Positions 15,677-59,920 of a stretch of 64,000 bases of DNA are shown here, in pieces. Each line of letters starts with the position of its first letter. Position 1 is the stretch's first letter. The notes below the pieces were generated by a model. It did no database searches. It saw only the letters and a list, made by a program, of their open reading frames with translations, and was not told the DNA's origin. The DNA lies in contig NC_049994.1 of assembly GCF_000003815.2 (NCBI RefSeq), positions 18,019,815-18,083,814 on the forward strand, in the 5' to 3' direction. A program made the translations under genes and the position numbers. The stretch is from Branchiostoma floridae. Lineage: Eukaryota; Chordata; Leptocardii; Amphioxiformes; Branchiostomatidae.

Positions 15677-15843
15677 GACGCTTTGTAACGTATTGGCGGG
15701 AGTCATATATTTTGGGAATCAGGAGAATAAATTTGACCTTTGACCCGCAGTAGTTCACCTCTGACCCCTCGCTACGACGAAGGAAGACGCAGATTGCCTT
15801 GACTCCCGGTTCACACAAGGAGAAAACCCGTCCTAGGAAGCAG
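15677..15843 (+). promoter_or_regulatory. ZF-1 first exon / promoter block
   Basis: Conserved block shared by the ZF units. It contains GACGCTTTGTAACG, an E2F-like TTGGCGGGA (15693-15701), a DR1 TGACCTTTGACCC (15734-15746), a second DR1-like TCACCTCTGACCC (15755-15767), a CCCGGTT motif and a donor CAG|GTAAGT at 15843/15844. DR1 is the binding pattern of RXR, HNF4 and COUP-TF receptors. All frames of the exon have stops, so it is 5' UTR. The transcription start is unknown. Confidence 0.75.
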
Positions 15844-16760
15844 GTAAGTCAAACAGCAAGCAGTCATTTAATTTGATGTTGATAGTAAGAGTTTAAGATC
15901 ATTTCTGTGGAGAAAAAAGACGAAGAAACATGATAGTTTGTAGTAAATTTCTTCCGTATTGGAATGGGATGGAAATGAAGGGGGAGGGGGGCGAAACCGA
16001 ACATTCGTGCGATCCTCATCACATCAAAATGACCGTTGTGGAGGATATGGTTGGGCTTTTAGAGGATATCAAATGGTATGTAATGCCATGTAAGGCCGTT
16101 AGGTGTTTTGTAATTATACTAAAGCTAACATGTGGAAACACCCCTTAGTGACCTTCAAACCAAGGAATTTATGTCGTAGCCAGGGGGAGGCTTTTAGCTC
16201 ATATTTTCAAGATGCTGGGGAAGATTTTATGTTGTATTTTCTACTATTGAATTTTTGCAAGTTTCTTTACTGCAACTGTTGCGTGCATAGACTTGAATCT
16301 GGTAGTTACTAGTATAGCAGTAGGGTCAGCTGGGAGAAAATGGATGTACAACACATATTTTTTTATTATAAATTATAATAGAAAAATATGTGTTGTATAT
16401 CCATTTTCATAACCTTTCTCCAATCCGTTTACATTGCATTTTCTTCATGGGAACATTTTCCTTCAAATTTCCTGCCATTTGGGGTAAAACTAACCGTAGT
16501 TGATATAAGAAAGGTTCTGAGCGATATTAACGGATTGTGTGACTTCCATGGGGGTATTGTAACAGCATGATGATATAACAAATTACTCTAGAAAATAAAA
16601 TTATCAAAATTTCACAAGGCAAAATTTCTTTTTTCACACAAAAAGTATGAAATTTGGTTGGGTTTTTAGGCAGTAGATTGAAATCAGCTGATTAAGTTAT
16701 AGCTTAATTTTTTTTCTGTCAATTCTAATAGTATGATCACTTTTTACCTTTTCTTATTAG
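15844..16760 (+). other. ZF-1 intron
   Basis: Begins GTAAGT and ends TTCTTATTAG. The G-rich box GGGGGAGGGGGGCG lies at 15980-15993. A 74-bp hairpin occupies 16335-16408. Nothing else is recognised. Confidence 0.75.
16335..16408. repeat. Near-perfect 74-bp hairpin in the ZF-1 intron
   Basis: GAAAATGGATGTACAACACA and its complement form a 27-bp stem with one mismatch, closed by an AT-rich loop. No target duplication is clear. It may be a tiny MITE or a small-RNA precursor. Confidence 0.7.
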
Positions 16761-16767
16761 GCTGGAC

Positions 16768-17835
16768 ATGGCAACGGCAGGACAAGGGTCTCCCACCGAA
16801 GTAGAGCAAAATTCTTTTGATGAGTCTCTCACCGGAGTTTCCCAGATGGACAGCAAAACAACCAATGCTGAAGACCAGACAGCAGACCAAAAGGTCAACT
16901 TGAACACTGCTAGTGAGCATGCAGGAGACAAACCCTACAAGTGTGACCGCTGTGACTATTCTACACCATGGAAATCTCACTTTAATGGTCATCTAGCAAC
17001 TCACACCGGAGACAAACCCTACATGTGGTGTGGGGAGTGTGGGTACAGGACAACTCAAAAGTCTGAATTATCCCGACATATGAGAACCCATACAGGAGAG
17101 AAGCCCTACAAGTGTGACCAGTGCGACTATTCAGCTGCACTGAAATCCAGTCTGAACAGGCATATAGCAGCAAAGCACACAGGTGAAAAACCCTTCAAGT
17201 GTGACCAGTGCGATTTTGCTGCAATAACAAAATCCCACATTGACTACCATATAGCAGCAAAGCACAGTGGTGAGAAACCCTACATGTGTGGGGAGTGTGG
17301 GTACCGGACAGCTCAAAAGTCTAGGTTATCACGACATATGAGAACCCATACAGGGGAAAAACCCTACAAGTGTGATCAGTGCGACTATTCTGCCACAGAG
17401 AAATTCAATTTGGACAAACATTTAGCAAAGCATACCGGCGATACCGGCGACAAGCCCTACATGTGTGGTGAGTGTGGTCACCGGACAGCCCAAAAGGCTG
17501 ACTTGGCGAAACATATGAGAACCCATACAGGTGACAAACCCTACAAGTGTCACATGTGTGACTATTCTGCAGCGCGGAAATTCAGTTTGGACAACCATAT
17601 GGCAGCAAGGCACGCTAGTGAGAAACCCTACCCGTGTAAGGAGTGTGGGTACAGGACAACTCAGAAACCTACTTTGCTTCGACATATGAGAACCCACACT
17701 GGAGAAAAACCCTACAAGTGTGATCAGTGCGACTATTCTGCAGCAGTGAAAGTCAACTTGGACTACCATGTAGCAGCAAAACACAGTGGTCAGAAACCCT
17801 GGAGAATGTGGGTACAGGACAGCTATAAACTCTAA
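16768..17835 (+). CDS. ZF-1: C2H2 zinc-finger protein, 10 fingers, truncated tail
   Basis: The protein has 355 residues. The leader (1-56, MATAGQGSPTEVEQNS...) is acidic and polar without a known domain. Ten C2H2 fingers follow, joined mostly by TGEKPY-type linkers, so sequence-specific DNA binding in the nucleus is expected. Fingers alternate between YMCGECGYRT and YKCDQCDYSA forms. Finger 2 carries an extra Trp (YMWCGEC). The linker after finger 6 holds a TGDTGDKP duplication also present in ZF-2. The frame ends SGQKPWRMWVQDSYKL: an 8-nt deletion at 17800/17801, relative to the ancestral YMCGECGYRT codons, destroys an eleventh finger. The start is the ATG seven bases after the acceptor TTCTTATTAG. 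No KRAB, SET or BTB domain is present. Confidence 0.93.
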   Translation: MATAGQGSPTEVEQNSFDESLTGVSQMDSKTTNAEDQTADQKVNLNTASEHAGDKPYKCDRCDYSTPWKSHFNGHLATHTGDKPYMWCGECGYRTTQKSELSRHMRTHTGEKPYKCDQCDYSAALKSSLNRHIAAKHTGEKPFKCDQCDFAAITKSHIDYHIAAKHSGEKPYMCGECGYRTAQKSRLSRHMRTHTGEKPYKCDQCDYSATEKFNLDKHLAKHTGDTGDKPYMCGECGHRTAQKADLAKHMRTHTGDKPYKCHMCDYSAARKFSLDNHMAARHASEKPYPCKECGYRTTQKPTLLRHMRTHTGEKPYKCDQCDYSAAVKVNLDYHVAAKHSGQKPWRMWVQDSYKL

Positions 17836-19899: not shown

Positions 19900-20067
19900 A
19901 AAAAGGCCTAACGTGCTACCTGAAGTCAAGCGGTTTACAAGGATTATCAGGATTACATTTTTCACCTTTGACCTACATAAGTTGACCTGTGACCTCCTGA
20001 TACGATAGAAGGATATTGCTGCACTGAGTCCCGGTTTACTTGCAGAGAAAAAGCGCCAAAAAAGCAG
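19900..20067 (+). promoter_or_regulatory. ZF-2 first exon / promoter block
   Basis: It has TCACCTTTGACCT (19962-19974) and TGACCTGTGACCT (19983-19995), the second being a perfect DR1 (AGGTCACAGGTCA on the other strand). A CCCGGTTTAC motif and the donor CAG|GTAAG at 20067/20068 follow. The E2F-like box and the GACGCTTTG start of other units are missing, so this is the most diverged promoter of the array. Confidence 0.7.
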
Positions 20068-21010
20068 GTAAGACTTAGAAACGAGCAGAAAATTATTTTT
20101 GATACTAAACATAACAGTTTAAGAAAAGGCCTGTGGATGAAATTCCACAGTAACATGATAGTTTTGAGGCATTTTCTTGATGTGAATGAGTCGGAAGTGA
20201 AGGGGGAGGGGGCGAAACCAAACGTTCGTGTGACCTAGTTTCCTTCGTACGTCATCAAAAGGCGAAATGGACGGTTTGGAGGACACAGAATGCTATATAA
20301 TGTAACGCTAGTTCACCTTTATCCGCGGGGCAACCTAAGTCCGTTGTATTTTAAAGCAGGGTATTGGTATTTAGGGCTATCAAGTCAAAGGCCGGTGGTT
20401 TCTATGCTTTGAAAATATCTCAATTTCAAACCAGCGTCCATTGACTCCAAAGCTCTACCATGTTTTAAACTACAACGCATATTGGTTACCCCCTCGAATA
20501 AATACTTGCTTGGTTTGTAAAACGCGTAGAAACACCTGAAAGTCATTGATTTGATTTATTATGATTGCAAAACCGTACAAATATGCAAGTGGGTCACAGG
20601 CAGCGGTATGCTAGTGTTGTGACCCACATATGAAATTATACATAAATATACGTTGATACACTAACTGCCACATTAAATACAATTATTAGATACAAATTAG
20701 GATTACAAATATGATCTGGAGTATCAATGTTCTAACACTATATTACATCTGGTACTGTCCAGTCCATTTCAAAGGCTATCACATAAGTTTTCTTCAAGTT
20801 TGAATCAAAATAAAATCTGATTAATGTAAGAAAGAGTTTTGAGGGTGCTATTAGAGGGGCAAATGACTTATCATTGTGACTAACTCACACTGACTTTTTA
20901 GTAACTTACTTGTAAAGTTCTTGAATTTAAGAAACGCAACATTTCCTAATTCATATGAAACCTGCCAAAAATCACTGTAGGCTTATTTGTAGCATTAGGT
21001 CATATATACA

Positions 21011-22179: not shown

Positions 22180-23985
22180 ATGGAAACGACAGGACTCGGG
22201 TATCCCACCGAAGATCAGAGCTACTTTGATGGGTCTCCAACCTGGGTTCCCCAGGTTGACTGCGACAGCAAAGCAAGCAATGCTCAAGACCAGATTGAAC
22301 AAGACAACCTGAATAACTCTGGTGAGGAACCCTTAATGTGTAAGGAGTATATAGGAACCCAGATCGAACACTATTCTACTGTAAATAAAACCGCCATGGA
22401 TAGTCATCTGGTTAAAACCCATGGTGAGAAAGCCTACAAGTGTGACCAGTGTGACTATTTTTCATCAAAGAAATTCAATTTAGACCAGCATAAAACAAAA
22501 CACACCGGTGAGAAGCCCTATGAGTGCGAGGAGTGCGGGTATAGGACAGCTCGAAAATCTGCTTTGTTTCTACATATGAGAATTCTACATATGAGAACCC
22601 ACACTGGAGAAATACCCTACAAGTGTGACCAGTGTGACTATTCTGCAGCACAGAAAGGTACTTTGGACATCCATAAATCAGAAAAACACAGCGATGACAG
22701 TGGTGAGAAATCCTACAATAGTTTCATTAGATTCATCATGGAAACGACAGGACAAGGGTCTCCCACCGAAGATAAGAACTGCTATGCTAGGTATCCAACT
22801 GGGGTTCCCCAGGCTGACTGCTTTGGGTCTCCCACTGAAGATCACAACTGCTATGGTGGATCTCCAACCGGAGTTCCCCAAGTTGATTGCTTTGGGTCTC
22901 CCACCGAAGATCACAACTGCTATGGTGGGTCCCCAACCAGGGTATGGCAGGTTAACTGTGAAAGCAAAGTCATTAAAGCTGAAGACCAGAACATGGAACA
23001 AGTCAAGTCGAACAACACTGGTGAGGAACCCTACATGTGTGAGCAGCCGACCTTAGCTAAGCTTCTGGGAATCCATATCGGAGAAAGACCTTTTAAGTGT
23101 GACCAGTGTGACTTTTCTTCTATGAATAAAATCGCTTTGGATACACATCTTGTGGAAAAACATGGTGAGAAACCCTACATGTGTGGGGAGTGTGGGTTCA
23201 GAACAGCTCACAGATCAAGTTTGTCTCAACATATGAAAACCCATACAGGAAGAAAACCCTACAAGTGTGACCAGTGTGACTATTCTGCAGCACTTAAAGG
23301 CAACGTGGATATCCATATAGCAAAACACACCGGTGAGAATCCCTACAAGTGTGACCAGTGCGATTTTGCTGCAATAACGAAATCCCACATTGACTACCAT
23401 ATAGCAGCAAAGCACAGTGGTGAGAAACCCTACATGTGTGTTGAGTGCGGGTATATGACAGCTCGAAAGTCTAGGCTATCACAACATATGAGAACCCATA
23501 CAGGTGATAAACCCTACAAGTGTGACCAGTGTGACTATTCTGCAGCAGATAAATCCAATTTGAACAAACATTTAGCAAGGCATACCGGCGATACCGGCGA
23601 CAAGCCCTACATGTGTGGGGAGTGTGGTCACAGGACAGCTCAAAAGGCTGACTTGGCGAAACATATGAGAACCCATACAGGTGACAAACCCTACAAGTGT
23701 CACATGTGTGACTATTCTGCAGCGCGGAAATTCAGTTTGGACAACCATATGGCAGCAAGGCACGCTAGTGAGAAACCCTACCTGTGTAAGGAGTGCGGGT
23801 TCAGGACAACTCAGAAATCTACTTTGCGTCGACATATGAGAACCCACACTGGAGAAAAACCCTACAAGTGTGATCAGTGCGACTATTCTGCTGCAGTGAA
23901 AGTCAACTTGGACTACCATGTAGCATCAAAACACAGTGGTCAGAAACCCTGGAGAATGTGGGTACAGGACAGCTATAAAGTCTAA
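22180..23985 (+). CDS. ZF-2: C2H2 zinc-finger protein with an internal second leader, 13 fingers
   Basis: The protein has 601 residues. After a leader (METTGLGYPTEDQSY...) come one degenerate finger and three intact ones. One of these holds a five-residue insertion (HMRILHMRTH). At residue 187 a second leader begins in frame with Met (METTGQGSPTEDKN), seven bases after an acceptor-like GTTTCATTAG. It contains three 23-residue tandem repeats (GSPTEDHNCYGGSPTGVPQ type; 69-bp units at 22756-22962). A degenerate finger and ten intact fingers follow. The last part (from the TGDTGDKP linker on) is nearly identical to ZF-1, including the 8-nt deletion at 23950/23951 and the WRMWVQDSYK tail. The gene looks like two coding exons joined in frame. 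DNA binding in the nucleus is expected. Confidence 0.92.
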   Translation: METTGLGYPTEDQSYFDGSPTWVPQVDCDSKASNAQDQIEQDNLNNSGEEPLMCKEYIGTQIEHYSTVNKTAMDSHLVKTHGEKAYKCDQCDYFSSKKFNLDQHKTKHTGEKPYECEECGYRTARKSALFLHMRILHMRTHTGEIPYKCDQCDYSAAQKGTLDIHKSEKHSDDSGEKSYNSFIRFIMETTGQGSPTEDKNCYARYPTGVPQADCFGSPTEDHNCYGGSPTGVPQVDCFGSPTEDHNCYGGSPTRVWQVNCESKVIKAEDQNMEQVKSNNTGEEPYMCEQPTLAKLLGIHIGERPFKCDQCDFSSMNKIALDTHLVEKHGEKPYMCGECGFRTAHRSSLSQHMKTHTGRKPYKCDQCDYSAALKGNVDIHIAKHTGENPYKCDQCDFAAITKSHIDYHIAAKHSGEKPYMCVECGYMTARKSRLSQHMRTHTGDKPYKCDQCDYSAADKSNLNKHLARHTGDTGDKPYMCGECGHRTAQKADLAKHMRTHTGDKPYKCHMCDYSAARKFSLDNHMAARHASEKPYLCKECGFRTTQKSTLRRHMRTHTGEKPYKCDQCDYSAAVKVNLDYHVASKHSGQKPWRMWVQDSYKV

Positions 23986-25850
23986 CCGTTCTAAACACAT
24001 GAAAACCCATATTGGAAAATGAACAAACAAATGTATTAAACCAGCACGACATTTTTTTAAAATCATCTTTCGACGTAGAAAAACAAGTGTCATCAGTGTC
24101 ACTGCGATGTGGACGCCTTGTGGCTGATTACTGATCAGAGACAAAAACTGATGATGGCTTTGCGGAGAGTTCGGATACAGGATAAGTGACAGTTTTGCCC
24201 TCTGCGGGTCTTCTTGACATTATTAGTGCTCCTCACTTGACTATTGTCAGACTAATAGAAGCGTCGTGGACCTGAAATATGATATTGCATGTCGGCTTAA
24301 GGAGAGTCTGAATACAGGATAAGTAACAGTTCGACCCTATGCGGCCCTTCCTGAATTTAGGGGCTATTGTAAGACGCTCACCCTAAGAGAAGCCATGTGA
24401 TCCTCCATGTAAAACTTGGCTTAATGATTCTAAACTTCTCATGTTTATGAATCGAAAGTCCTCTGATAGAATTATAGAATGACTTGATAGTTTCTCATAG
24501 ATATAGATATATAATATGAATATAATTATGTATAATATGGAGAATCTGGATTCAGGATTAGTGACAGTTCGACCCCGTGAGGCCCTTCCGGAAGTTAAGG
24601 GTATCTGACTTGTGGGACTCTCACGGAGAGAAGCCGTGGGGACTTGAAAGGTGATCCTGCATCTGAAACTTAGCTTGATTACTTCTCACGTTGGTGAGAG
24701 TCCATTGTATAAGAATTATAGAATGACTTGGTAGTTGCTCATAGAATAAGATGATTTATGTTTTCAAATAGGTTATTGTTTGTACAAAGCAAGTTAAGGC
24801 ATAGAATTGGTTTTGTTACTTTGTTATATACCTAACATTTTCTTTAAGAAATAATATTTTGTCTACTTACTTTGAGTATATACTGTTTTAGAGAATGTCT
24901 AACATGTATTGAATACCAGCAAAAAACAATAAGCGACAAAAAGCAGTGGTTACGGTAAAATGATTTTTACTGCTGTTTGTCATCTAACCTGCAATGTGAT
25001 CGAGTATTAATGAAGGAATGAAGTGCACACTGTGGTAGAAATGTGTAACAGTAGATATGTAGTTTTATAGGATCGTTTTTGAAACTTTATCATTTTCTGA
25101 TAATTCCTGTTTAATATAATGTTTAGAAAACTTTACATGTGAGTTTGTACGATTTAATTCGTACCCTCTGATCAATGTATTACTATGTTAGTCCATCATG
25201 GTATGCTCCATAAAGCTGTGTGAGAATTGAGGAGTAACACAACTTCTGGCACCACCCGTGGAATGTCCACCCCACTGTCTGTAGTACTAACGCAATAAAA
25301 TACAAGTTTTAGCAGCATCTACTGTCTCCGTCTGATTCCACAAAAAAGTAAAAACTCGACATTACAGTTAACCACAGAAGTATGATACACTTCATATTGC
25401 AGTATGTAACACATATGTGATACAAATCAAGTTGAATGGTAGCATGTCTTCAGCTATTATTTTCAAGCTCTAAAACACAATCGAGTTCGTCCATACAACT
25501 GAACAACGTTTCCTACACTTATAGATACCCAATGAGGCACAATACGAAGGAAATTATCGACATGCGCAGTTAGCAATGTTTTTTTTAACTTTCGATCTTA
25601 AGTCTTTCGATCAGATAGAAAATCGCCAACAGTAGGAAAATCGGGAGACCGGAATAAGATTCATTTTTTTAATCCTTTCTTAGACTAGCTCAATGACCTG
25701 TATGTGTTAATTGATTATGTTTATATGCCTCACGGCCCAAGTCCAAGGCCCTCTGAATGTACCTGACCGATAAACAACACTTGAATCTATTGCTGAGTGA
25801 CCCTCTAAAGGTAAGGCATAGCGGCCAAACCTCAGACTGAAAACGAAGCT
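23986..25850 (+). other. ZF-2 3' flank and intergenic region
   Basis: Three tandem copies of the 3' flank unit lie near 24160-24280, 24295-24420 and 24535-24660, against two after ZF-1 and one elsewhere. A canonical AATAAA lies at 25294-25299, followed by CTCCGTCTGATTCCAC. No separate gene is seen up to the ZF-3 promoter. Confidence 0.6.
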
Positions 25851-26011
25851 TGGCGTCTTTAACGTGTTGGCGGGAGTCAAATATCTGGGACATCAGGAGA
25901 ACATATTCACCTTTAACCCGCACTACTTCACCTCTGACCCCTCGGTACGACGGAAGAACAACAGCCCCCTCGCAGGATTTTACGTGAGGGGAAAAACGTC
26001 ATAGGAAGCAG
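25850..26011 (+). promoter_or_regulatory. ZF-3 first exon / promoter block
   Basis: E2F-like TTGGCGGGA at 25867-25875. DR1-like TCACCTTTAACCC at 25907-25919 and TCACCTCTGACCC at 25928-25940. Donor CAG|GTAAG at 26011/26012. Confidence 0.75.
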
Positions 26012-26662
26012 GTAAGAGCTGATGGCAAGCAACCAAGTATTTTGATGTCGAGTGTAAAAGTTTGAGGTCATTTTTGTGGAAGAAAACCAGAGAAATATGA
26101 AAGTTTATAGGACATTTCTGGATATGAAAATGGTGGAATCGCACAGGGGGAGGGGGGCGAGACCAAACTTGCCCCGTCATCACCTCCATACGTCATACAG
26201 CAGGGAGGTGACAGTTTAAGAGGGTATGGAGTGATACATAAGACCATATAAGGGCATTTAATGGTTTGTAAGTGGCACGTGGAAACATCCGGAAGTGACC
26301 TTTGAACTAGGTAGGGAGGGGGCCGGGATGATGGTTCGGACAGTGTCATTTTTTCAGGTTGTTGTATCATCTATTATTTTGGCTTTTCCAATTTCTTAAA
26401 TCTACTGCAACAATAACAGTGTTGGTAAAATTTTATTGATAAGAACAGGAAGTTCAGGGGTGATCTATAGATGCATAATTCTTTATCTGTAATTTGCATA
26501 TCCCAATATCTTATCCCAATATATATTCATCCCTATAAGCACTAGCTAGCAAAGGTCAAGTTTTCTAGGAAAAGCGAAGTATTCACAAATAGTTGGTCCG
26601 AAGCTGTGTGGCCATATTAAATAACTACAATTAAACGAATCGCTTTGTGGGGGATAAAGAAT

Positions 26663-30750: not shown

Positions 30751-30912
30751 ACGCTTTGTAACATGTTGGCGGGAGTCAAGTATCTTGAGAATCAGGTGAA
30801 AAAATTTGAACTTTGACCCGGAATAGTTCACCTCTGACCCCTCGCTGCGACGAAAGCAGAAAGCAGCTCGACTCCCGGTTTACGCGAGGAGAAAACCCGT
30901 CTTAGGAAGCAG
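30750..30912 (+). promoter_or_regulatory. ZF-4 first exon / promoter block with altered donor
   Basis: E2F-like TTGGCGGGA at 30766-30774. DR1-like TGAACTTTGACCC at 30807-30819 and TCACCTCTGACCC at 30828-30840. At the exon end, other units read CAG|GTAAG; here it is CAG|ATAAG (30913-30914), so the GT donor is lost. Confidence 0.7.
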
Positions 30913-31884
30913 ATAAGGCTTAACAGCGAGCAGTCAGGTATTTTGATGTTGAGCGTAAGAGTTTGAGGTCCTTTCTGTGGAGAAAAACGGAAGTAATATG
31001 ATAGTTTGTAGGAGATTTCTGTATTTGAATATGGTAGAAATGAAGGGGGAGGGGGGCGAAACCAAACATTCGTGAGACCCTCATTACCTCCGCACGTCGT
31101 GTAGGAGGAAAGGTGGTCGTTTTGGAGGGTTTGAATGGGGTTTTGGATGATAGAAATTATACGTAGTGTAATGTAAGGGCGTTAAATGGTTTGTAAAGCT
31201 CACATGTGGGAATACCCCAATGTGACCTTTGGAAGCAAGGAATGACGTATCTAAGTTGAGGGTGGCCTGCTTTACCCTGTCTCATTGTTGCAAGTTATAA
31301 GGGACAATTTTAAGTTGTATCATCTAATTTTAGCTTTGTTTATGAATTTGAATTTAGTGTAGCAGTAGTGTCAGATAAGACAGTAATAGAGTAACTAATC
31401 TCAAAACTTTCAACCTTTCTCATTCTGCAAGTGTCTCCCAGAATGTGTTGTGTTCGTATTTATAAGATTAGCTGAATACAATTGTAAAGCTTGTCAATAG
31501 TAATATCAGCTAATTGACTATAATAAAGCATACAAAGCATACAAACTATATACTGCATATAAGTACCAATTCATTTACGTTTTCTTTCCATTCAGGGTAG
31601 AATTAATTCTAGTTTATACAAGAAATATTCTGAGCGAGATTGACTGGTTGATGACTGATTATAATAGCTAACAGGAAAATTATAACAACTTGCTCTAGCC
31701 GAGAGAATTATCGGTTGAGAAAACAATATTTCTTTTTTTTCCACAAACCATTTCTAGATTTGGTTGAGCTGCTATGCAGTAGGTGAAAATTATTTGATCA
31801 AGTTGTAACACAAAATAGTTTGTTTTCTATGAATTTTCAATATCATTATGATTGAAACAATTTCTTCTTGTTTTTTCTTATTAG
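30913..31884 (+). other. ZF-4 intron region
   Basis: G-rich box GGGGGAGGGGGGCG at 31045-31058. The acceptor TTTTTTCTTATTAG at 31871-31884 is intact. No other feature seen. Confidence 0.7.
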
Positions 31885-35679: not shown

Positions 35680-35837
35680 TTTGTAACGTGTTGGCGGGAG
35701 TCAAATATCTTGAGGATCAGGAGAACAAGTTTGACCTTTGACACGCAGTAGTTAACCTCTGACCCCTAGCTGCGACGATAGAAGAAAGCAGCTCGACTTC
35801 CTGTTGATGCGACCAGAAAAACCGTCAAAGAAAGCAG
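35675..35837 (+). promoter_or_regulatory. ZF-5 first exon / promoter block
   Basis: E2F-like TTGGCGGGA at 35691-35699. DR1-like TGACCTTTGACAC at 35732-35744 and TAACCTCTGACCC at 35753-35765. Donor CAG|GTAAG at 35837/35838. Confidence 0.75.
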
Positions 35838-36739
35838 GTAAGAGCTGATGGCGAGCAATCAAGTATTTTGATATGGAGCGTAAAAGTTATAGGTCATTTT
35901 TGTGGGAGAAAACCAGAGAAATATGAAAGTTTATAGGACATTTCTGGATATGAAAATGGTGGAATCGCACAGGGGGAGGGGGGCGAGACCAAACTTGCCC
36001 CGTCATCACCTCCATACGTCATACAGCAGGGAGGTGACAGTTTTAGAGGGTATGGAGTGATACCTAAGACCATATAAGGGCATTTAATGGTTTGTAAGTG
36101 GCACGTGGAAACATCCGGAAGTGACCTTTGAACTAGTTAGGAAGGGGGCCGGGATGATGGTTCGGACAGTGTCATTTTTTCAGGTTGTTGTATCATCTAT
36201 TATTTTGGCTTTTCCAATTTCTTAAATCTACTACAACAATAACAGTGTTGGTAAAATTTTATTGATAAGAACAGGAAGTTCAATAGGTGATCTATAGATG
36301 CATAATTCTTTATCTGTAATTTGCATATCCCAATATCTTATCCCAATATATATTTATCCCTATAATCACTAGCTAGCAAAGGTCAAGTTTTCTAGGAAAA
36401 GCGAAGTATTCACAAATAGTTGGTCCGAAGCTGTGTGGCCATATTAAATAACTACAATTAAACGAAACGTTTTGTGGGGGATAAAGAATTATATACCGCC
36501 TCATCTTTTGAACATCATGAGTGAATGTATTCTTACTGACGTGACAACTCTAAAAGACTTGCAGGTGATTTTTTAGTAACCTGTTGGATTCTTGAAAGAT
36601 AGGAAAATCAACGGTTCCTTTTACTATGAACGCGCCTAAGCTATTGTGTGGTATAAGTGTATGGTCATATAACACTTTCCGGTACTTTCTTTAGATATAT
36701 ACGATGACTTTTGTAATTCTTTCTTCATTTTCTCAGTAG
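35838..36739 (+). other. ZF-5 intron
   Basis: Nearly identical to the ZF-3 intron but without the 946-bp transposon. G-rich box at 35972-35985; acceptor TTTTCTCAGTAG. Confidence 0.8.
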
Positions 36740-40308: not shown

Positions 40309-40489
40309 TCGGACTAAGAACGAAGCATGGTACTTTTTAACGTGTTGGCGGGAGTCAAATATGTTGGTAATCAGGAGACCATATTCACCTTTGACCTACC
40401 CCCTTCACCTGTGACCCCTCGTTGCGACGGAAGCACTAGCAACCCGAGCGCCTGATTTTACGTGAGGAGAAAAACGTCATAGGAAGCAG
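40309..40489 (+). promoter_or_regulatory. ZF-6 first exon / promoter block
   Basis: E2F-like TTGGCGGGA at 40345-40353. DR1-like TCACCTTTGACCT at 40385-40397 and TCACCTGTGACCC at 40405-40417; here the spacing is 20 bp, not 21. Donor CAG|GTAAG at 40489/40490. Confidence 0.75.
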
Positions 40490-41858
40490 GTAAGGCTTAA
40501 TAGCGAGCAGTCAAGTATAATGATACCTAGCGGAAGAGTTTGAGGTCATTTCTGTGGAATAAAAAGTGTAGAAAGTTGATGGTGGTTAGTACATTTCTAG
40601 ATATGAACATGGTAGACAATGAAGGGGGAGGGGGGCGCAACCAAACATGCGTGCGACCCTCATTCCTCATTACGTATCTACTACGTAACGTGGCTGTTTT
40701 AGGAAATATTTAGCCTTTTTGGAGGACATGCAATGTTATCTAATGCCATGTAAGGCAGTTATTGTTTTTTTGTAAAGCACACGTGTTTGAGAGAGAGAGA
40801 GAGAGAGAGAATGGTTTTGTTTATTGACATATTCACATAATTTAATGCCTCGAAGTAACGTTTAAAAGGCAGGCATACTGAAGTACTGTAAATGCAGAAA
40901 TGTTCGCGGTGGATTAATGTTCGCGGTTTTCACGATGGCCACTTTACCGCGAACATTTTTCTATAACGGTATTAGACTGCAGACTATGGTGTTACCGCGA
41001 AATTAAAACCACCGCGAAAAGCCTATTTTCCCGCTACCGCGAAATTAAATCCCCGCGAACTTAGATGCATTTACGGTATATCAAGCCAGGGGAAGAGTGG
41101 GGCTGTTTTTATAGCTCGTTGCAGATTGTAGGGAAAGCTATCGTTTTATATCATCTGTAAGCTATTTACTATTAGATTTTCTTTATTGAATGTGTTGTGT
41201 CTATCAAATTTGAATTTAAATAATTAAGAAGAAAGCTGAAGAAAGTGACAATGATGCTACAATATCATCTTTGTTGTAACTTATATACATTTTCGTATCC
41301 TTCATGGGTGTGAACAGACGGTATCTGTTACATACAATAGTATCATCAGGCAAAGGCCCAGCAATTACTTATTGGCCCTTGGATAGAACTATTTCCAGAC
41401 AACTCACTGGCCTCAGTTTGTACCACTCCGCCAGACCACAACACAACAGTATCTAAACTCTGAAATTTCTACCTAGCTTTATCATTCTGCTAGTGTCTTC
41501 CAGAACCATACTGTACCAATTTCATTGCTAATTTTCCCTGCCATTTTCCTTGATTTTGGGGTAGAATTGCATGATTCTATTTAATGTGATTATTATAAGG
41601 AAGGTTTTATTAAAGTGAGATTGGCGGTTTGAGTGATTCACAGTAAGGTCTGACAGGGATTTCACCAGACTTAAATAGTCGTGCTTAGAAAATTATCACA
41701 AGTGGAGAAAGCAACACTTCTTTTCTCACAACACACGCCAGAATGAAGTTGAGTTATAACACAATAGTTATCTGATCAGGTTATAACACAGTCTATTTTC
41801 AATATCATGATGACTTAGAAAAAAATCACTTTGTTTTCTCTCTTTATTTTCTCATTCG
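40490..41858 (+). other. ZF-6 intron with lost acceptor
   Basis: G-rich box at 40624-40637, a (GA)n run at 40791-40810, and TTCGCGG MITE copy 3. Where other units read CATTAG|GTTAGACATGG this one reads CATTCGGTTAGACATGG, so the acceptor AG is CG at 41857-41858. The next AG, at 41862-41863, leaves two bases before the ATG. Confidence 0.7.
40884..41078. mobile_element. TTCGCGG-type MITE, copy 3
   Basis: Ends TACTGTAAATGCAG and TGCATTTACGGTA, with many TTCGCGG and CCGCGAA words inside. Confidence 0.85.
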
Positions 41859-44470: not shown

Positions 44471-44499
44471 GCTAACACCGTCTCAAAGGTTTTATGAAA

Positions 44500-45660: not shown

Positions 45661-45719
45661 GTTTCATCCATTGTATTTTCTTGCTTTGAAATCTGCTAAT
45701 GATTATTCTCCTAAAATGG

Positions 45720-48467: not shown

Positions 48468-48630
48468 TAACATGACGTTTCGTAACGTGTTGGTGGAAGT
48501 CAAATATCTGGGATATCAGGAGAACTTATTCACCTTTGACCCGTACCGCTTTACCTATGACCCCTCGGCAAAAGAAGAAACCAGCTCGATCCCCGGTTTA
48601 CGCGAGGAGAAAACTCGGCATAGGAAGAAG
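48467..48630 (+). promoter_or_regulatory. ZF-7 first exon / promoter block
   Basis: DR1-like TCACCTTTGACCC at 48530-48542 and TTACCTATGACCC at 48551-48563. The E2F-like box is altered (TTGGTGGAA). The exon ends AAG|GTAAG at 48630/48631 instead of CAG. By chance this copy is open from an ATG at 48472 through the donor; homologous copies are not, so I treat it as UTR. Confidence 0.7.
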
Positions 48631-49096
48631 GTAAGACTTAATAGAAAGCAGCCAGGTATTCCTATATGAGCGTAAGAGTTTCAAGTTATTTTCGTGGAAG
48701 AAAAGCGGAGAAATATGATAATATATAGGGCATTTCTGGATATGAATATGGTGGCAATGAAGGGGGAGGGGGGCGAAACCGCCGCACGTTAAAGTAGTAT
48801 AGGTAGGGGGCAACGTGGTCGTTTTTGGATATAAATACAAAATAAAATAGCTTTTTGGGGGACATGATTCTATCTAATAGAACTGGTTGAGTGACTGTAG
48901 GGGCTGACAGGGATTTGTGACATTAATAATAGTCGAGTTAGAAAATTGTCACAAGTGGAGAAAGCAACATTCCTTTTCTCAGAGACACGTCGGAAATGAG
49001 TTATAACACAATAGTTATCTGATCAAGTTATAACAATCTATTTTCAACATCATGATCATGATGACTTAGAAAATAATCTCTTTATTTTCTCATTAG
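48631..49096 (+). other. ZF-7 intron (short, 466 bp)
   Basis: G-rich box at 48762-48775; acceptor TTTTCTCATTAG. It lacks about 900 bp found in the ZF-6 intron. Confidence 0.75.
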
Positions 49097-49103: not shown

Positions 49104-50207
49104 ATGGCAACGACAGGACCAGGGTCTCACACTGGAGTAGAGCGGAACCGCTGTGATGGGTCTCCCGCCGAGGTTTGTCAGATTGCCTGTGGCAGCAAAT
49201 CAAGCGATGCTGAAGACCAGACAGCAGCACAGAAAGTCAACTTAAAAAACGCTGGTGAGAAACCCTTCATGTGTGGGGAATGTGGGTATCGGGCAGTTCA
49301 TTGGTCTAAGTTATCCCGGCATATGAGAATCCATACTGGAGAAAAACCCAACAAGTGTGACCAGTGCGACTATTCTGCTGCAGAAAGGGGTAGCTTGGCT
49401 ACTTATCAAGCAACACATACCGGGGACAAACCCTACATGTGTGGGGAGTGTGGGTACAGAGCGGCTCAGAAGTCTAAGTTATCCAGACATATGAGAATCC
49501 ATACTGGAGAAAAACCCTACAAGTGTGATCAGTGCGACTATTCTGCATCACGGAAATACTACCTGAAGCACCATATGGCAGCAAAGCACACTGGCGAGAA
49601 ACCCTACATGTGCGGTGAGTGTGGATATAGGACAGTCCAAAGGTCTGAGTTATCCATACATATGAGAACCCATACAGGAGAAAAACCTTACAAGTGTGAC
49701 CAGTGCGACTATTCTGCAGCAGTGAAAGTCAATTTGAACAACCACATAGCAGCAAAACACACTGGTGACAAACCCTTCATGTGCGGGGAGTGTGGGTACA
49801 GGACGACTACAAAATCTACGTTATCCATACATATGCGAATCCATACTGGAGAAAAACCCTACAAGTGTGACCAGTGTGACTATTCTGCAACACAAAAGGC
49901 CACTCTGGACAACCACATAGCAGCACAACACACCGTTGAGAAACCCTACATGTGTGGGGAGTGTGGGTGCAGGACAAGTCGAAAATTTGCCTTAACCAGA
50001 CACATGAGAACCCATGCAGGAGAAAAACCGTACAAGTGTGGGGTGTGTGGATACAGGACAGTTCAAAAGTCTCACTTATCCCGACATATGAGAACCCATG
50101 CAGGGGAAAAACCATACAAGTGTGACCAGTGTGACTATTCTGCAGCACAGAAAGTCCATTTGGATCTCCATGTGGCAGCAAAACATACCGGTGAGAAACA
50201 TGTGTGA
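49104..50207 (+). CDS. ZF-7: C2H2 zinc-finger protein, 11 fingers, last finger lost by frameshift
   Basis: The protein has 367 residues. The leader is MATTGPGSHTGVERNRCDGS. Eleven fingers follow; finger 2 has His changed to Tyr at the first zinc ligand (SLATYQATH), so ten are canonical. Finger 9 reads CGECGCRT and finger 10 CGVCGYRT. The frame ends GEKHV. Compared with ZF-6 (GAGAAACCCTACATGTGTG), five bases are missing near 50200, which removes the twelfth finger and the HIGE tail. It is the sister of ZF-6 and shows its pre-insertion structure. Nuclear DNA binding is expected. Confidence 0.93.
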   Translation: MATTGPGSHTGVERNRCDGSPAEVCQIACGSKSSDAEDQTAAQKVNLKNAGEKPFMCGECGYRAVHWSKLSRHMRIHTGEKPNKCDQCDYSAAERGSLATYQATHTGDKPYMCGECGYRAAQKSKLSRHMRIHTGEKPYKCDQCDYSASRKYYLKHHMAAKHTGEKPYMCGECGYRTVQRSELSIHMRTHTGEKPYKCDQCDYSAAVKVNLNNHIAAKHTGDKPFMCGECGYRTTTKSTLSIHMRIHTGEKPYKCDQCDYSATQKATLDNHIAAQHTVEKPYMCGECGCRTSRKFALTRHMRTHAGEKPYKCGVCGYRTVQKSHLSRHMRTHAGEKPYKCDQCDYSAAQKVHLDLHVAAKHTGEKHV

Positions 50208-51674: not shown

Positions 51675-51837
51675 GACGCTTTGTAACATGTTGGCGGGAG
51701 TCAAATATCTTGAGAATCAGGTGAAGGAATTTCACCTTTGACCCGGAATAGTTCACCTCTGACCCCTCGCTACGACGAAACCAGAAAGCAGCCCGAGTCC
51801 AGGTTTACGCGAGGAGAAAAACCGTCATAGGAAGCTG
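51674..51837 (+). promoter_or_regulatory. ZF-8 first exon / promoter block
   Basis: E2F-like TTGGCGGGA at 51691-51699. DR1-like TCACCTTTGACCC at 51732-51744 and TCACCTCTGACCC at 51753-51765. The exon ends CTG|GTAAG at 51837/51838. Confidence 0.75.
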
Positions 51838-52465
51838 GTAAGACTTAACAGCGAGCAGTCAGGTTTTCTGATGTTGAGCGTAACAGTTTAAGATCATTTC
51901 CGTGGAGAAAAAGACGAAGTAATATGCTAGTTTGTAGGAGATTTCTTTATGTGAATATCGGTAGAAATAAAGGGGGAGGGGGGCGAAACCAAGCAAACGT
52001 GTCGCCCTCATTACCTCCGCACGTAGTGTAGGATGCAAAATGGCCGCTTTGGAACATATAAATGGCCTTTTGGAGAAAATGGTATGCATTGTCATGGAAG
52101 GCCATCTGCTGTTAAGATTTCCCCCAGTTTCTCCCCCACTGCATCTGTCGCGATCGTGTACATCCTCCAATTTCCGTGCCATTTCGGGATAAAATGAACT
52201 GTAGTCGATATAAGAAAGGTTCTAAGCGATATCAATGGATTGAATGACTTTATTTGGGGTATTGTAACAACTTAATGATGTAACAACTTACTCTAGAATA
52301 TAAAATGATAAAAAGTTGAGAAATCAAAATTCTATTCGCAAAAAAATCGAAATTTGATTGGGTTGTTAAGCAGTAGAATTGTGAAATTATCTGATCAAAT
52401 TATAGCTCCGTGTAGTTTTTCTATCAATTCTAATATTATGATGACATCTAACCTTGTCTTATTAG
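51838..52465 (+). other. ZF-8 intron
   Basis: G-rich box at 51972-51985; acceptor CTTGTCTTATTAG. The part near 52180-52400 resembles the ZF-1 intron (TTGATATAAGAAAGGTTCT). Confidence 0.75.
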
Positions 52466-52472
52466 GCTGAAC

Positions 52473-54003
52473 ATGGCAACGTCATGGCATGGGTCTCTCA
52501 TCGAAGTAGAACAAAATTGCTGGAATGAGTCTCCCACCGGGGTTTTCCTGTTGGACTTCAACCCCACATCAAGCAATGCTGAAGACCAGGCAGCAGACCA
52601 AAAGGTCAACTTGAACACTGCTAGTCACGTAAGTGAGCAGGCAGGAGACAAACCATACAATTGTGATCGCTGTGACTTTTCTACATCATGGAAATCTCAC
52701 TTGGACCGTCATCTAGCAATTCACTCTGGAGAAAAGCACTACATGTGTGGGGAGTGTGGGTACAGGACAACTAAAAAAATCTAACTTAGTACAGCATATG
52801 AGAATCCATACAGGAGAAAAACCCTACAAGTGTGACCAGTGCGACTATTCTACAGCATGGAAAACCCATTTAGTCGAGCATCGCACAAAACACACTGGCG
52901 AGCAACCCTATATGTGTGGGGAGTGTGGCTACAGGACAGGTTATAAATCTAGCTTGTCCAAACATATGAGAATCCATACAGGTGAAAAACCCTACAAGTG
53001 TGACCAGTGCGACTATTCTGCAGCACGGAAATCCGATTTGGTTCAGCATCGCACAAAACACACGGGTGAAAACCCCTATATGTGTGGGGAGTGCGGATAT
53101 AGGACAGTTCAAAAGTCTAAGTTATCCATACATATGAGAATCCATACTGGAGAAAAACCCTACAAGTGTGACCAGTACGACTATTCTGCATCTCGAAAAC
53201 CCCATCTTGAACATCATATTGCAGGAAAGCACACCGGTAGGAAACCCTTCATGTGTGGGGAGTGTGGGTACAGGGCGGCTCATACATCTAAGCTATCAAT
53301 ACATATGCGAACCCATACTGGAGAAAAACCCTACAAGTGTGACCAGTGTGACTATGCTGCATCACGGAAACACCATTTGGACGAGCATCGCACAAAACAC
53401 ACGGACGACAAACCCTACATGTGTGGAGAGTGTGGGTACAGGACAGCTCGGAAGTCTGACTTATCCAAACATATGAGAATCCATTCAGATGAAAAACCCT
53501 ACAAGTGTGACCAGTGCGACTATTCTGCAACACGGAAAGTCAATTTAGGTATCCATCAAACAACACATACAGGGGACAAACCCTACATGTGTGGGGAGTG
53601 TGGGTACAGAGCAGCTACAAGGTGTACGTTATCCAAACATATGAGAACCCACACAGGAGAAAAACCCTACAAGTGTGAGCAGTGTGACTATTCTGCAGCA
53701 CAGAAGCCCCACCTGGACTACCATATGGCAGCGAAGCACACCGGTGAGAAACCCTTCATGTGTGGGGAGTGTGGGTACAGGACAGCTCAAAAGTCCACCT
53801 TATCCCAACACATGAGAACCCATACAGGAGAAAAACCCCACAAGTGTGACCAGTGTGACTATTCTGCAACACAGAAATCAAGTTTGAACAAACATTTAGC
53901 AAAACACACCGGCGAGAAACCATACATGTGTGGAGATTGTGGGTTTAGGACAGCTTGGAAGTCAACCTTGTCCAAGCACATGAGAACCCATACAAGGGAA
54001 TGA
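52473..54003 (+). CDS. ZF-8: C2H2 zinc-finger gene with a frameshift in an A7 run, 16 fingers
   Basis: The first frame (52473-52784) encodes leader MATSWHGSLIEVEQNCWNES, finger 1 and half of finger 2, then stops. The rest (about 52780-54003) is open in another frame and encodes fingers 2-16 and the tail THTRE. The join lies in seven A residues (52773-52779) where six would keep frame (RTTKKSNLVQHMRIH). One finger has Cys changed to Tyr (KCDQYDY), the rest are canonical. A one-base homopolymer difference may be a sequencing error, a polymorphism or a true null allele. Leader and promoter link it to ZF-1 and ZF-4. Confidence 0.8.
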
Positions 54004-55599: not shown

Positions 55600-55765
55600 C
55601 ATGACGCTTTGTAACGTGTTGGCGAGAGTCAAATATCTTGGGAATCAGGAGAAAATTTGACCTTTGACCCACCATAGGTCACCTCTGACCCCTCGCTACG
55701 ACGAAAGAAGAAAGCAGTCCGACTCCCGGCCTTTACGCGAGCAGAAAACCCGTCATAGGAAGCAG
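55600..55765 (+). promoter_or_regulatory. ZF-9 first exon / promoter block
   Basis: DR1 TGACCTTTGACCC at 55658-55670 and TCACCTCTGACCC at 55679-55691. The E2F-like box is changed to TTGGCGAGA. Donor CAG|GTAAG at 55765/55766. Confidence 0.75.
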
Positions 55766-57516
55766 GTAAGACTTAATAGCGAGGAGTCAGGTGTTCTGAT
55801 GTTGAGCGTAAGAGGTTTGGGTTATTTCTGTGGGAGAAAACTAGAGAAATATGATAGTTCGTAGACGATTTCTGTATTTGAATATGGTAGAAATGAAGGG
55901 GGAGGGGGGCGAAACCAAACATACGACCTCCGCACGTTGTGTAGGAGGAAAGGTGGTCGTTTTGGAGGGTATAAATGGGTTTTTCGATGATAAAAATTAT
56001 ACGTAGTGTAACGTAAGGGCCTTAGATGGTTTGTAAAGCTCCTAATGCCCCTAAGTGACCTAAATATATGGAAGTAAGGAATGGCGAAGCCAGTGGGAGG
56101 TGGGGTTGTTTAGGTTTTTTAACCCGGGAGCTTCCCCCCCCCCCCCCCCCACGATGCCCCATACGGGGCCATTTGGGGGTTTAAAGAATGTAGATATGTA
56201 GATGTCTCAATGTTTCTAGTTGTGAAAAGCAATTTTATCTTTTATCACCTGCTACTAAGATATTGACTAGTTTCTATACTGCATCTGCTGTGTGTATCGA
56301 ATGTAGATTTTGTATATCAGATAGAGAGTGCCACAATATCATCTGTGCTTTACACCTACTTTCATACCCTTTAGTTGTCTAAACAGGCGGTACCCAAACT
56401 CTAAAGTAAAACCGTTTCATGTGCCAGAAAGCAATTACTCAAGCAACTGGATATGATTTTATAAGTTGCTTGAGTAACTGCTTCTTTTTGGCATATATTC
56501 TTACCTGGATGTCTAACCTTCATCGACATAACCGTTACCACTCTGCAGGTTTCCTACAAAACATTCTGTACCATGTACCGACTCAATGCTGACATTTCAA
56601 TGCTGATTACAACAATTTTCCTCCGCCAGGGGGTACAAATGATTATATTTGATATAAAGAAGTTTCGTAGCGAGAGTAACGGGTTGAGCGACTGTAAGGG
56701 CAGCACAAGCATTTACGAGAAATTAGTAGAGTCTCCATTGTCATCATTTACAAATGTTTTCAATTATATGTCCAGGAGATTTTATACTTTTGAAATATTT
56801 CTAATGCTATTTGAACTTTCTGAATATTTCCCCCGGTCTGTAAAACAGTTTGTAAACGATGGTAACAGTATTTTGCCATTATTTGCTATTTTCTACCATT
56901 TTTTTGTAATATTGGGTCAGTGGGCTAGGAAGAAAGCAATTCACATCCTTGCAAAGTATGTTTGGGTGCCATGTCAATGGCATACCACAAAGGACCCACT
57001 AGTGCCCATCAGTGAAATTTAAAAATATATCAGGAAGACAAAAGGGGCTAACTTTTATGGGGCAATTAATTAATTCTACCATTTGGTAAGGTTAACCATT
57101 TTTTGTAAATAATTCTAAAAGTGAAAGAATCCTGCAGATGTTTGAAAATTACTGTAAATAAAGAAATTTTTGTGTGATCTCTTTCAAAATGTTTCCAAAG
57201 TATTCAAAGGAATTCAAATAGATTCAAAATTCTATATTAATATTTTTGAAAAAATTGTAACTGTTGGGGCTTAGAAATTCTTTTATTCAAAATAATTCTA
57301 AATTATTACAATTATTGTCTAAAAACCCTCATGGTGTCTCGGAATGGACTCTAAAGCTAAGAAAATTAGCAAAAATTGAAAAAGCAACATTTTTGTTCTC
57401 ACAATACACGACGAAATTGAGTTGAGTTGATACGCAATAGTTATCAGATCAAGTTATAACAATCTATTTTCAATATCATGATGACTTAGAAAATTATTTT
57501 TTTATTTTCACAATAG
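55766..57516 (+). other. ZF-9 intron (1.75 kb)
   Basis: G-rich box at 55898-55911, a poly-C run at about 56136-56151, and a short hairpin at about 56425-56495 (GCAATTACTCAAGCAACT pairing with AGTTGCTTGAGTAACTGC). The acceptor is TTTTCACAATAG. An open frame at 56573-57022 is AT-rich and unsupported. Confidence 0.7.
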
Positions 57517-57523
57517 GTTAGAC

Positions 57524-58561
57524 ATGGCAACAGCAGGACATGGGTCTCATACTGGAGTAGAGCAGAACCGCTCTGATGGGTCTCCCGCCGAGGTTTTTCA
57601 GATTGCCTGTGACAGCAAATCAAGCGATGCTGAACACCAGACGGCAGCACAGAAAGTCAACTTTAAAAACGCCGGTGAGAAACCCTTCATGTGTGGCGAA
57701 TGTGGGTACAGGACAGCTCATAGGTCTAACTTATCCCGACACATGAGAACCCATACAGGAGAAAAATCCTACACCTGTGACCAGTGCGAGTATTCCACAA
57801 TACGGAAATCCCAACTTGACTGCCACATAGCAACAAAACACGGTGGTGATAAACCCTACATGTGTGGGGAGTGTGGGTACCGAACAGTAGAAAAGTCTAA
57901 GTTATCCGTACATATGAGAACGCATACTGGAGAAAAACCCTACAAGTGTGACCAGTGCGACTATTCTGCAGCAAAGAAATACACTTTAGTTACTCATCAA
58001 GCAACACATACCGGGGACAAACCCTACATGTGTGGGGAGTGTGGGTACAGAGCAGCTCAAAGGTCTAGCTTATCCCAACATATGAGAACCCATACAGGAG
58101 AAAAACCCTACAAGTGTGGGGAGTGTGGATTCAGGGCAGCTCTAAAGTCTGATTTAGCCCGGCATATGAGAACCCATACAGGAGAAAAACCCTACAAGTG
58201 TGACCAGTGCGACTATTCTGCTACACAGAAATATTCTGTGGACATCCATAAAGCAGCAATACACAGTGGCGAGAAACCCTACATGTGTGGGGAATGTGGA
58301 TACAGGGCAACTCAAAGGTCTACTTTATCCAAACACATGAGAACGCACACAGGAGAAAAACCCTACAAGTGTGACCAGTGCGAATATTCTACAGCACAGA
58401 AAGTCAATTTGGACAGGCATATAGCAGCAAAACACACCCGCGAAAAACGCTTAATGTGTGGGGAGTGTGATTTTAGGACAGCTCGGAAGTCAACCTTGTC
58501 CAAACATAAGAGAGCCCATATGAATGAGAATGACCAGTCAGATTTGACAGTTACTAAATAG
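57524..58561 (+). CDS. ZF-9: C2H2 zinc-finger protein, 10 fingers, intact
   Basis: The protein has 345 residues. Leader MATAGHGSHTGVEQNRSDGS, then ten canonical C2H2 fingers and a distinct tail (MNENDQSDLTVTK). Fingers 5 and 6 are both GECG-type. The tail differs from HTRE because the stop lies further on; ACTAAATAGTAAATCGTCTG-like sequence here is early 3' UTR in other units. No disabling change is seen in promoter, donor, acceptor or frame, so with ZF-3 it is the best candidate for an active gene. The leader groups it with ZF-6 and ZF-7. Confidence 0.94.
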   Translation: MATAGHGSHTGVEQNRSDGSPAEVFQIACDSKSSDAEHQTAAQKVNFKNAGEKPFMCGECGYRTAHRSNLSRHMRTHTGEKSYTCDQCEYSTIRKSQLDCHIATKHGGDKPYMCGECGYRTVEKSKLSVHMRTHTGEKPYKCDQCDYSAAKKYTLVTHQATHTGDKPYMCGECGYRAAQRSSLSQHMRTHTGEKPYKCGECGFRAALKSDLARHMRTHTGEKPYKCDQCDYSATQKYSVDIHKAAIHSGEKPYMCGECGYRATQRSTLSKHMRTHTGEKPYKCDQCEYSTAQKVNLDRHIAAKHTREKRLMCGECDFRTARKSTLSKHKRAHMNENDQSDLTVTK

Positions 58562-59750
58562 TAAATTGTCTGTTGGTAAGATTTTTACAGTACAAAACAC
58601 ATGGGAGAAATCTAGTGTGGTCAGTGTCACTACTCGATCATGTGACCGAGTTTTGATCAGAGACACCCTTAAAAACTGATGCGAAGAGCCTGGATACGGG
58701 AAAAGTGACCGATCGACATTGTGATACCCTTCCGGAATTTAAGGGTACTTTTCACCTCACTATTGTGTTATTATGTAAAACTTGATTATTTATGATTTTC
58801 AGGTAGATGAGGTACTGTTTAAGGTAGAATTTATAGAATGACTTTATAGATGATCATAGGATAAGTTAATAGATGTCAAATAGGCAAGTGTTTGTCCAAA
58901 GTAAGTTAAGGTATTGAATTGTTTTTGTTACTTTTCTTATTTATATTTGTATCGTTAGGAAATAATATTTTGTCTACTTACTTCGAATATATTCTGTTTT
59001 AGAAAATGTCTAACCTGTAGTGAATACCAGCAAGAGAGAATAAACGACCACACAAAAGCAGTGGTCTCTGTGACATGATTTTCACCGGTGTTTTTGAACT
59101 AACCTGCAACGTGATTAAGTGTTAATGAAGGAATATCGAATGAAGTACACTGTGGTAGAAATGTGTAATGGTAGATACGTAGTTTTATAGAATTTATTTT
59201 GTTGTTTGTTTATTATTTTCTGATAATTCTTGTTGTTATTGTTAAGTAGGAAACTTTAGACTTCGTATTATCTTATTCTAATCTATGTATGACTTAATTA
59301 GGATACTAGTAGTCGTCCATAATGAATATCAAGTATGCTCCATGAAGCTGTGTGAGAATTGAGAAGCAACAACCTCTGGCACCACCCGTGGAATGCCCAC
59401 CCCAATGTCTGTAGTACTATGTTAGCAGCATCTACTGTCTCCGTTTGATAACACAACAAAATACAAAGCTCAATAGTACAGTTTAGAACAGAGATGTGAT
59501 ACGAAATGCAGACAATAAATTTCTTACCTTGCGAATGTCAGAAATGTAAAGCAAAGCCTTTCGAAAAGAAAACAAAATTCAACAGTAGAAAAATCAGGCG
59601 ACTAGAATAAGATTTGTTTTTATGCGTTTTTTCCGTGACTAACTCAATATCCTCTCCCTCACGGCCCTCACCCATTATCAAAATTTGAATCTGAATCTGA
59701 ATATTGATGAGAGATTAGCCATCATACTAAAGATAAGACAGACTGAGGGC
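58562..59750 (+). other. ZF-9 3' flank and intergenic region
   Basis: Carries the conserved 3' unit, CTAACCTGTAGTGAATACCA (about 59009) and an end block near 59430 (shortened, CTGTCTCCGTTTGAT). No gene. Confidence 0.65.
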
Positions 59751-59756
59751 TCAGCA

Positions 59757-59920
59757 TGACGCTTTGTAACGTGTTAGCGGGAGTCAAATATCTTGAGAAT
59801 CAGGCGAACAAATTTGACCTTTGACCCACAGTACTTCACCTCTAACCCCTAGCAGCGACGACAGAACAAAGCAACCCGAGTCCCGGTTTACGCGAGCAGA
59901 AAACCCGTCATAGAAAGCAG
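59757..59920 (+). promoter_or_regulatory. ZF-10 first exon / promoter block
   Basis: DR1 TGACCTTTGACCC at 59815-59827 and TCACCTCTAACCC at 59836-59848. E2F-like box TTAGCGGGA. Donor CAG|GTAAG at 59920/59921. It predicts a tenth zinc-finger coding exon beyond 64000. Confidence 0.75.

Follow-up and report, generated by a model that had tools for sequence, protein, structure and literature searches.

How the dozens of genes in a fast-evolving zinc-finger family can be held under common control is an open question, to which the shared TATA promoter of a zebrafish family is a partial answer (PMC10547256). The same question is raised by a 64,000-bp stretch of the lancelet Branchiostoma floridae (contig NC_049994.1, here C16, positions 18019815-18083814; referred to as the window) from an assembly of 513 Mb in 431 contigs; contigs are labelled C and individual loci L. 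The window carries ten tandem units of a C2H2 zinc-finger gene array, each of which begins with a similar block. A first-pass annotation of the window described two nuclear-receptor-like sites in each block, of the type in which two half-sites are directly repeated with a one-base spacer (DR1), and proposed coordinated control of the array.

The two DR1-like 13-mers are present in 10/10 units, on the plus strand (Table 1). As described, their start-to-start spacing is 21 bp in nine units and 20 bp in unit 6. In unit 2, site 2 (19983) reads TGACCTGTGACCT and matches AGGTCA-N-AGGTCA perfectly; this unit indeed has the most diverged block, with the lowest profile score and a promoter part that is 51-59% identical to the other units. 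A profile of the surrounding 420 bases recovers ten strong copies in the window, all with E 1.5e-94 or better. Beyond the ten blocks, the window has no profile match below E 1 (next-best E 1.8) and no other same-strand pair of DR1 sites 20-21 bp apart (allowing three mismatches per site). The block has a constant order: an ATCAGG element, the two DR1s, then the first splice donor. ATCAGG starts 14-16 bp ahead of site 1 in all ten units, and its columns are nearly invariant. The double DR1 module is real, constrained and family-wide, and the initial observation was right in substance.

We consider it probable that each block combines the core promoter and the non-coding first exon of a gene in an expanded C2H2 family, with a DR1-reading nuclear receptor at both sites. 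The two DR1s, about two helical turns apart, would lie just downstream of an initiator-like ATCAGG and upstream of the first donor. A receptor of the NR2/RXR group (TR2/TR4-like, COUP-TF, HNF4 or RXR dimers) would occupy both sites, with two dimers probably sitting side by side on one DNA face, at or just after the start site. Receptor occupancy would set when and where the family is transcribed, and its members would be expressed together. By sequence, TR4, COUP-TF, HNF4 and RXR are not separable, and it could equally be any of them. The blocks suggest that one receptor class controls the whole fast-evolving zinc-finger repertoire; the proposal of coordinated control is partly supported, roughly to the limit of what a sequence can show.

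DR1 bases change more slowly than their neighbours, a point that the first-pass annotation had left to be checked: they are the slowest in a set of 54 copies and among the slowest in the ten units. In the ten units, the DR1 pair requires 16 parsimony steps over 26 columns; only 4/190 placements of the same geometry are as low, all of them at most 2 bp off register. In 19 copies, found without the DR1 pattern, 31 steps over 24 columns compare with a permutation mean of 50 (approximate P 0.005), and 5/132 placements are as low. Two of these are at or beside the register, and three, slightly lower, are in the exon tail and donor region. For 46 copies, the approximate P is 0.0005 and 2/130 placements are as low. 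For the 54 copies, also found without the DR1 pattern, 60 steps compare with 104 (approximate P 0.0004), and the register is the single lowest of 130 placements. The steps per column are 2.27 in site 1 and 2.69 in site 2, compared with 9.75 in the 8-bp spacer, 4.49 upstream and 4.26 downstream. The tests on 19, 46 and 54 copies scored 11/13 site-1 columns, the first two aligning ambiguously, and all trees were built from the same alignments. Four loci first found by the DR1 pattern (L015, L016, L035 and L036) were excluded from the 46- and 54-copy counts, even though L035 and L036 also turned up later in the second similarity search described below. Matches under about 60 model positions were discarded, L065 among them. 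The half-site bases are more constrained than neighbouring bases in all four sets.

These numbers bear on shared ancestry as the sole explanation, in which the block was copied by recent tandem duplication and by gene conversion, with the DR1s as mere passengers. The copies are indeed paralogues, the block reaches into the intron, and mosaic identity between copies suggests conversion. Within the alignment itself, however, the spacer evolves about fourfold and the flanks about 1.7-fold faster than the sites, and both sites are retained in distant copies with coding N-termini that fail to align. We regard pure shared ancestry as quite unlikely.

The module extends far beyond the window, and many clustered C2H2 genes share it. 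In total, 58 block copies on C16, C158, C166 and C19 were aligned, a set that also took in neighbours chosen by position; the search for finger exons covered the surroundings of some of the 58. In a DNA-similarity search, the best 40 of 53 candidates were scored and 40/40 match, on C16 (18.0-18.4 and 2.5-2.6 Mb), C158 and C19. A second query, the C19 copy (best 40 of 52 scored), added further copies, including those on C166. Because the queries contain DR1s, copies without DR1s are under-sampled. Across the 513 Mb, the strict pair, ACCTTTGACC-N8/9-TNACCTNTGACC, is matched 24 times, as against 0 in a reversed control, and thus occurs more often than by chance; this count covers N8-9 only and leaves out pairs that are 22-23 apart. 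Of these strict pairs, 22 sit in the zinc-finger block, with L014 and L034 being outside. Ten C158 copies are on average 72% identical to the ten window blocks (range 65-79%). The C158 family members encode fingers behind an N-terminus with no clear similarity to the C16 type: when three N-termini from one contig set were compared with two from the other (C158 vs C16, 3 x 2), no alignment clearly beat shuffles. Single DR1 words are also enriched in the genome, with 434 matches to TGACCTTTGACCC (16 when reversed) and 89 to TCACCTCTGACCC (9 when reversed), 21 of the latter being placed in the family.

On C16, the zinc-finger array (18.0-18.42 Mb) continues well past both ends of the window, and its block copies occur on either strand. 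On C19 (L061/L071, 3486000-3489850), a block copy precedes a zinc-finger gene of different build, which has another N-terminus and, by motif count, five fingers.

Read on the minus strand, the word that is kept is RGGTCA-N-AGGTNA, because changes cluster at half-site base 5, at the position 1 purine and, in site 2, at the spacer base. Site 1, by comparison, has an almost invariant spacer base; the commonest spacer bases are T in site 1 and C in site 2, which is A or G on the opposite strand. A DR1 receptor element is expected to tolerate changes at half-site base 5, at the position 1 purine and in the spacer base. The sites have the direct-repeat form with a one-base spacer, the 3' half-site being relaxed at base 5. 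Both are kept with at most two mismatches each to TNACCTNTGACCY in 49/54 copies, and with at most one each in 43. Across the family, the pair spacing is 21 (36 copies), 22 (10), 20 (2) or 23 (1). A strict 21-bp phasing is not borne out, and exact phasing by two helical turns is rejected as a strict rule. One copy, L054 (C16:18228240-18228720, minus strand), lacks about 24 bp that three relatives have, and only one DR1 is left. This lone DR1 joins the start of site 1 to the end of site 2, an outcome that recombination of one site with the other might produce.

Two other identities for the sites were tried and rejected by reading. A TCF/LEF site (CTTTGA) is rejected because site 2 has no CTTTGA and its spacer base is variable. 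Paired CACCT of the ZEB type is rejected on its key base, which in the 35 copies read can be G, C or T at site 1 and is unrestricted at site 2.

Gene promoters are among the possible targets of KRAB zinc-finger proteins, as are one another's genes (PMC10547256). In the lancelet family, too, another factor might read the sites, be it the encoded zinc-finger proteins, in which case the array would regulate itself, or some zinc-finger factor that recognises a TNACCTNTGACC word. Two main types with a near-fixed frame account for 101/121 fingers, and their most variable helix positions are the contacts -1, 3 and 6, plus +2 in one type. Such highly variable contact positions would fit another factor, as would the near freedom of base 5 in the 3' half-site. 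Nevertheless, the repeat form together with the tolerated positions is that of a nuclear-receptor DR1, and DR1 words are enriched far outside the zinc-finger family. We regard a different reader as unlikely.

Several points weigh against a receptor at both sites. Unlike in the textbook AGGTCA, the 3' half-site varies almost freely at base 5. An intact pair is missing in 5/54 copies; three of these exceptions are partial matches (L046, L066 and L069), L018:720 has a decayed site 1, and the fifth is L054, with its deletion. The genome counts of DR1 words include repeats, such as L002 and L008, which share 99.6% identity over 459 bp. Since the block copies are paralogous, with mosaic histories and gene conversion, their columns are not independent and the P values given above are approximate. 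In the smaller sets, placements that are neighbouring or in the donor region are as low or lower. In the 54 copies, TAACGTG, ATCAGG and the donor region are equally well kept; therefore, the DR1s are not the sole constrained element.

The block is closed by a GTAAG donor in 9/10 units (ATAAG in unit 4), and the putative first exon is a segment without ATG in 7/10 units. In 8/9 units examined (units 1-9), a TAG acceptor lies 7-11 nt ahead of the zinc-finger ATG; in unit 6, the exception, this TAG reads TCG and a second TAG follows 5 bases further. The apparent transcription of this segment, and its position ahead of a conserved donor, would suit a constraint acting on the RNA, as an element of the 5' untranslated region or a splicing signal rather than a DNA-binding site. 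However, no consensus RNA structure was predicted for the first exon (0 pairs in 15 copies), and a repeated DR1 is typical of DNA-binding sites. Constraint at the RNA level is highly improbable.

A receptor at the two sites would act next to ATCAGG, and this element leads to a broader question. After six copies were removed, 48 were available for an analysis of segment lengths. The lengths from ATCAGG to site 1, of the DR1 spacer and from site 2 to CGAC have standard deviations of 0.3-0.5, compared with 2.3-6.4 for three other segments, the wide values of two of the three being partly due to single outliers (GAAAA-to-donor is 14-15 in 46/48). ATCAGG, which has a CA step, may be the initiator, and the start site would then be located there.

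Genome-wide, ATCAGG-N10..13-ACCTTTGACC has 67 matches and 0 when reversed. By position and letters, 32 are in the zinc-finger block (one of them, C158:1447174, assigned without its sequence being fetched) and 35 are outside. With N14..17 there are 26 matches and with N20..23 there are 7. Outside the family, the counts by gap are thus 35, 26 and 7, indicating a loose preference for 10-17 bp and no single fixed distance. The commonest gap among the 35 is 13 (18 matches), but near-identical duplicates are included, so these matches are not independent events. Eight outside loci were picked, non-randomly, for a similar sub-pattern and the 13-base gap: 7/8 precede C2H2 exons, on C200, C13, C8 and C158, and 8/8 have a YY1-like CCGCCAT or ACCATTTT 46-65 bp past ATCAGG. 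At the eighth, L076 (C9:2711900-2713980), the ATCAGG-DR1-YY1-like promoter is found upstream of an open reading frame (ORF) with a match to Pfam RAG1_imp_bd (E 8e-10). Four further outside matches, on different chromosomes, have no finger exon within about 1.8 kb; 2/4 have a YY1-like word, one of these (L083) being half N.

It is possible, at rather less than even chances, that ATCAGG followed by a DR1 about 10-17 bp on, with two sub-types (double DR1, and DR1 plus YY1), is a lancelet core-promoter code with one nuclear-receptor input, used by much of the C2H2 repertoire on many chromosomes and ahead of unrelated N-termini. The signature at other zinc-finger genes is the newest and least secure part of the analysis. 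Alternatively, ATCAGG with a downstream DR1 may be a general lancelet core-promoter type, often with YY1, and the co-regulation of zinc-finger genes a by-product. This overlaps with the receptor proposal and would account for the matches outside the block (35/67, and 26 more with N14..17), for the one that precedes an ORF with the RAG1 importin-binding domain, and for the four without a nearby finger, two of them with a YY1-like word. It would not lead one to expect that 32/67 matches are the zinc-finger block, that 7/8 selected others precede C2H2 exons, or that the double DR1 is nearly confined to the family (22/24). We consider a general promoter type rather doubtful.

Other promoter words are less consistent. 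An E2F-like TTGGCGGGA was reported for most units. It is exact in 6/10 (units 1, 3, 4, 5, 6 and 8), has one mismatch in units 9 and 10 and two in unit 7, and is absent in unit 2. The E2F site type is TTTSGCGC. The word is not generally kept, being exact in only 17/46 family copies and within one mismatch in 24/46, and it was not seen by reading in the C158 copies displayed. As a core element, E2F is a weak candidate. No canonical TATA box common to the aligned blocks was found by reading, no TATA matrix having been run.

The nearest biological parallel is found in zebrafish, in the FZNF family: its early members have a TATA-box promoter in common, and their expression peaks sharply when the genome is activated (PMC10547256, PMC5690287). 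Like the FZNFs, the lancelet genes form a large, young, clustered C2H2 family with a common promoter architecture. In place of the TATA box, they have two DR1s downstream of ATCAGG and no shared TATA seen by reading. By analogy, co-expression of the lancelet family is a prediction. In lancelet, the conserved control module consists of two nuclear-receptor sites at the first exon, and it names a testable class of factors (the NR2/RXR group) along with the prediction of joint expression.

Human TR4 (NR2C2) binds near start sites, in first exons and introns, and prefers DR1s with A or G as spacer (PMC3019231). The lancelet sites are similar in being DR1s close to the putative start, in the first exon, and their T and C spacers (A and G on the other strand) fit this preference. 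TR4 targets are several hundred general genes, and less than 30% of its peaks in any cell type have a DR1 (PMC3019231), unlike the tandem DR1 pair in one lancelet gene family. Amphioxus promoters as defined by cap analysis of gene expression (CAGE) have YY1 and TATA features (PMC6292497), and YY1-like words are also found in the second ATCAGG-DR1 class. Neither "Nuclear receptor" nor "NR2" occurs in the main text of that paper, as far as it was available. CAGE and chromatin accessibility (assay for transposase-accessible chromatin, ATAC) data exist for Branchiostoma lanceolatum (PMC6292497). Within partial coverage of the literature (titles and abstract openings), no report was found of DR1 sites in zinc-finger or amphioxus core promoters.

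As for gene content, the lancelet locus resembles another well-known arrangement. Tetrapod KRAB zinc-finger clusters are tandem C2H2 arrays with variable DNA-contact residues, and the lancelet array is likewise tandem, with variable contact positions. Unlike in these clusters, KRAB is absent among the Pfam matches listed for the four lancelet family proteins scanned (three from the window and one from C158). We know of no shared DR1 promoter in tetrapod KRAB zinc-finger clusters.

Table 1. Features of the ten zinc-finger units, in window coordinates.
Unit	Feature	Position	Strand	DR1 site 1	DR1 site 2
1	promoter/first-exon block	15684..15850	+	15734-15746	15755-15767
1	donor AGCAG/GTAAG		+		
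1	zinc-finger ORF, from ATG	16768-17835	+		
2	promoter/first-exon block	19908..20076	+	19962-19974	19983-19995
2	ORF	22180-23985			
3	promoter/first-exon block	25858..26017	+	25907-25919	25928-25940
3	ORF	27874-28962			
4	promoter/first-exon block	30757..30921	+	30807-30819	30828-30840
4	ORF	31892-34237			
5	promoter/first-exon block	35681..35843	+	35732-35744	35753-35765
5	ORF	36747-38480			
6	promoter/first-exon block	40336..40498	+	40385-40397	40405-40417
6	ORF	41866-42714	+		
6	fingers resuming beyond insertion	46343-46834	+		
7	promoter/first-exon block	48481..48639	+	48530-48542	48551-48563
7	ORF	49104-50207			
8	promoter/first-exon block	51681..51846	+	51732-51744	51753-51765
8	fingers, first frame	52473-52784	+		
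8	fingers, second frame	52717-54003	+		
9	promoter/first-exon block	55609..55774	+	55658-55670	55679-55691
9	ORF	57524-58561			
10	promoter/first-exon block	59764..59929	+	59815-59827	59836-59848
10	ATCAGG element, proposed initiator region	59799..59804	+		

Counted with a simple motif, the fingers number 10-24 in each of units 1-5, 7 and 9. Some units look non-intact, namely unit 4 (donor), unit 6 (acceptor and insertion) and unit 8 (split frames). Unit 4, the richest in fingers (24), is alone in having ATAAG at the donor of exon 1 (30897-30931). The zinc-finger exon of unit 6 is split by a 3,787-bp insertion (42629-46415). By reading, this has inverted ends (CACAGCACGAAAA / TTTTTCGTGCCGTG) and an apparent 3-bp duplication of AGT, which suggests a DNA transposon. 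In unit 8, the fingers are split between overlapping frames (52452-54003), either by a frameshift or by an assembly error. No zinc-finger exon of unit 10 is seen within the window, where positions 61405-62290 are an N gap; downstream, finger coding resumes about 200 bp beyond the window end, with the exon at L009:208-1494. Between units 3 and 5 (25607-26407 and 35432-36232), the deeper intron is 99% identical and the exon tail 58%, a mosaic that is probably due to gene conversion. Upstream of the array, on the minus strand (2454-3317), the window contains an ORF with an NHL repeat / SGL-type match.

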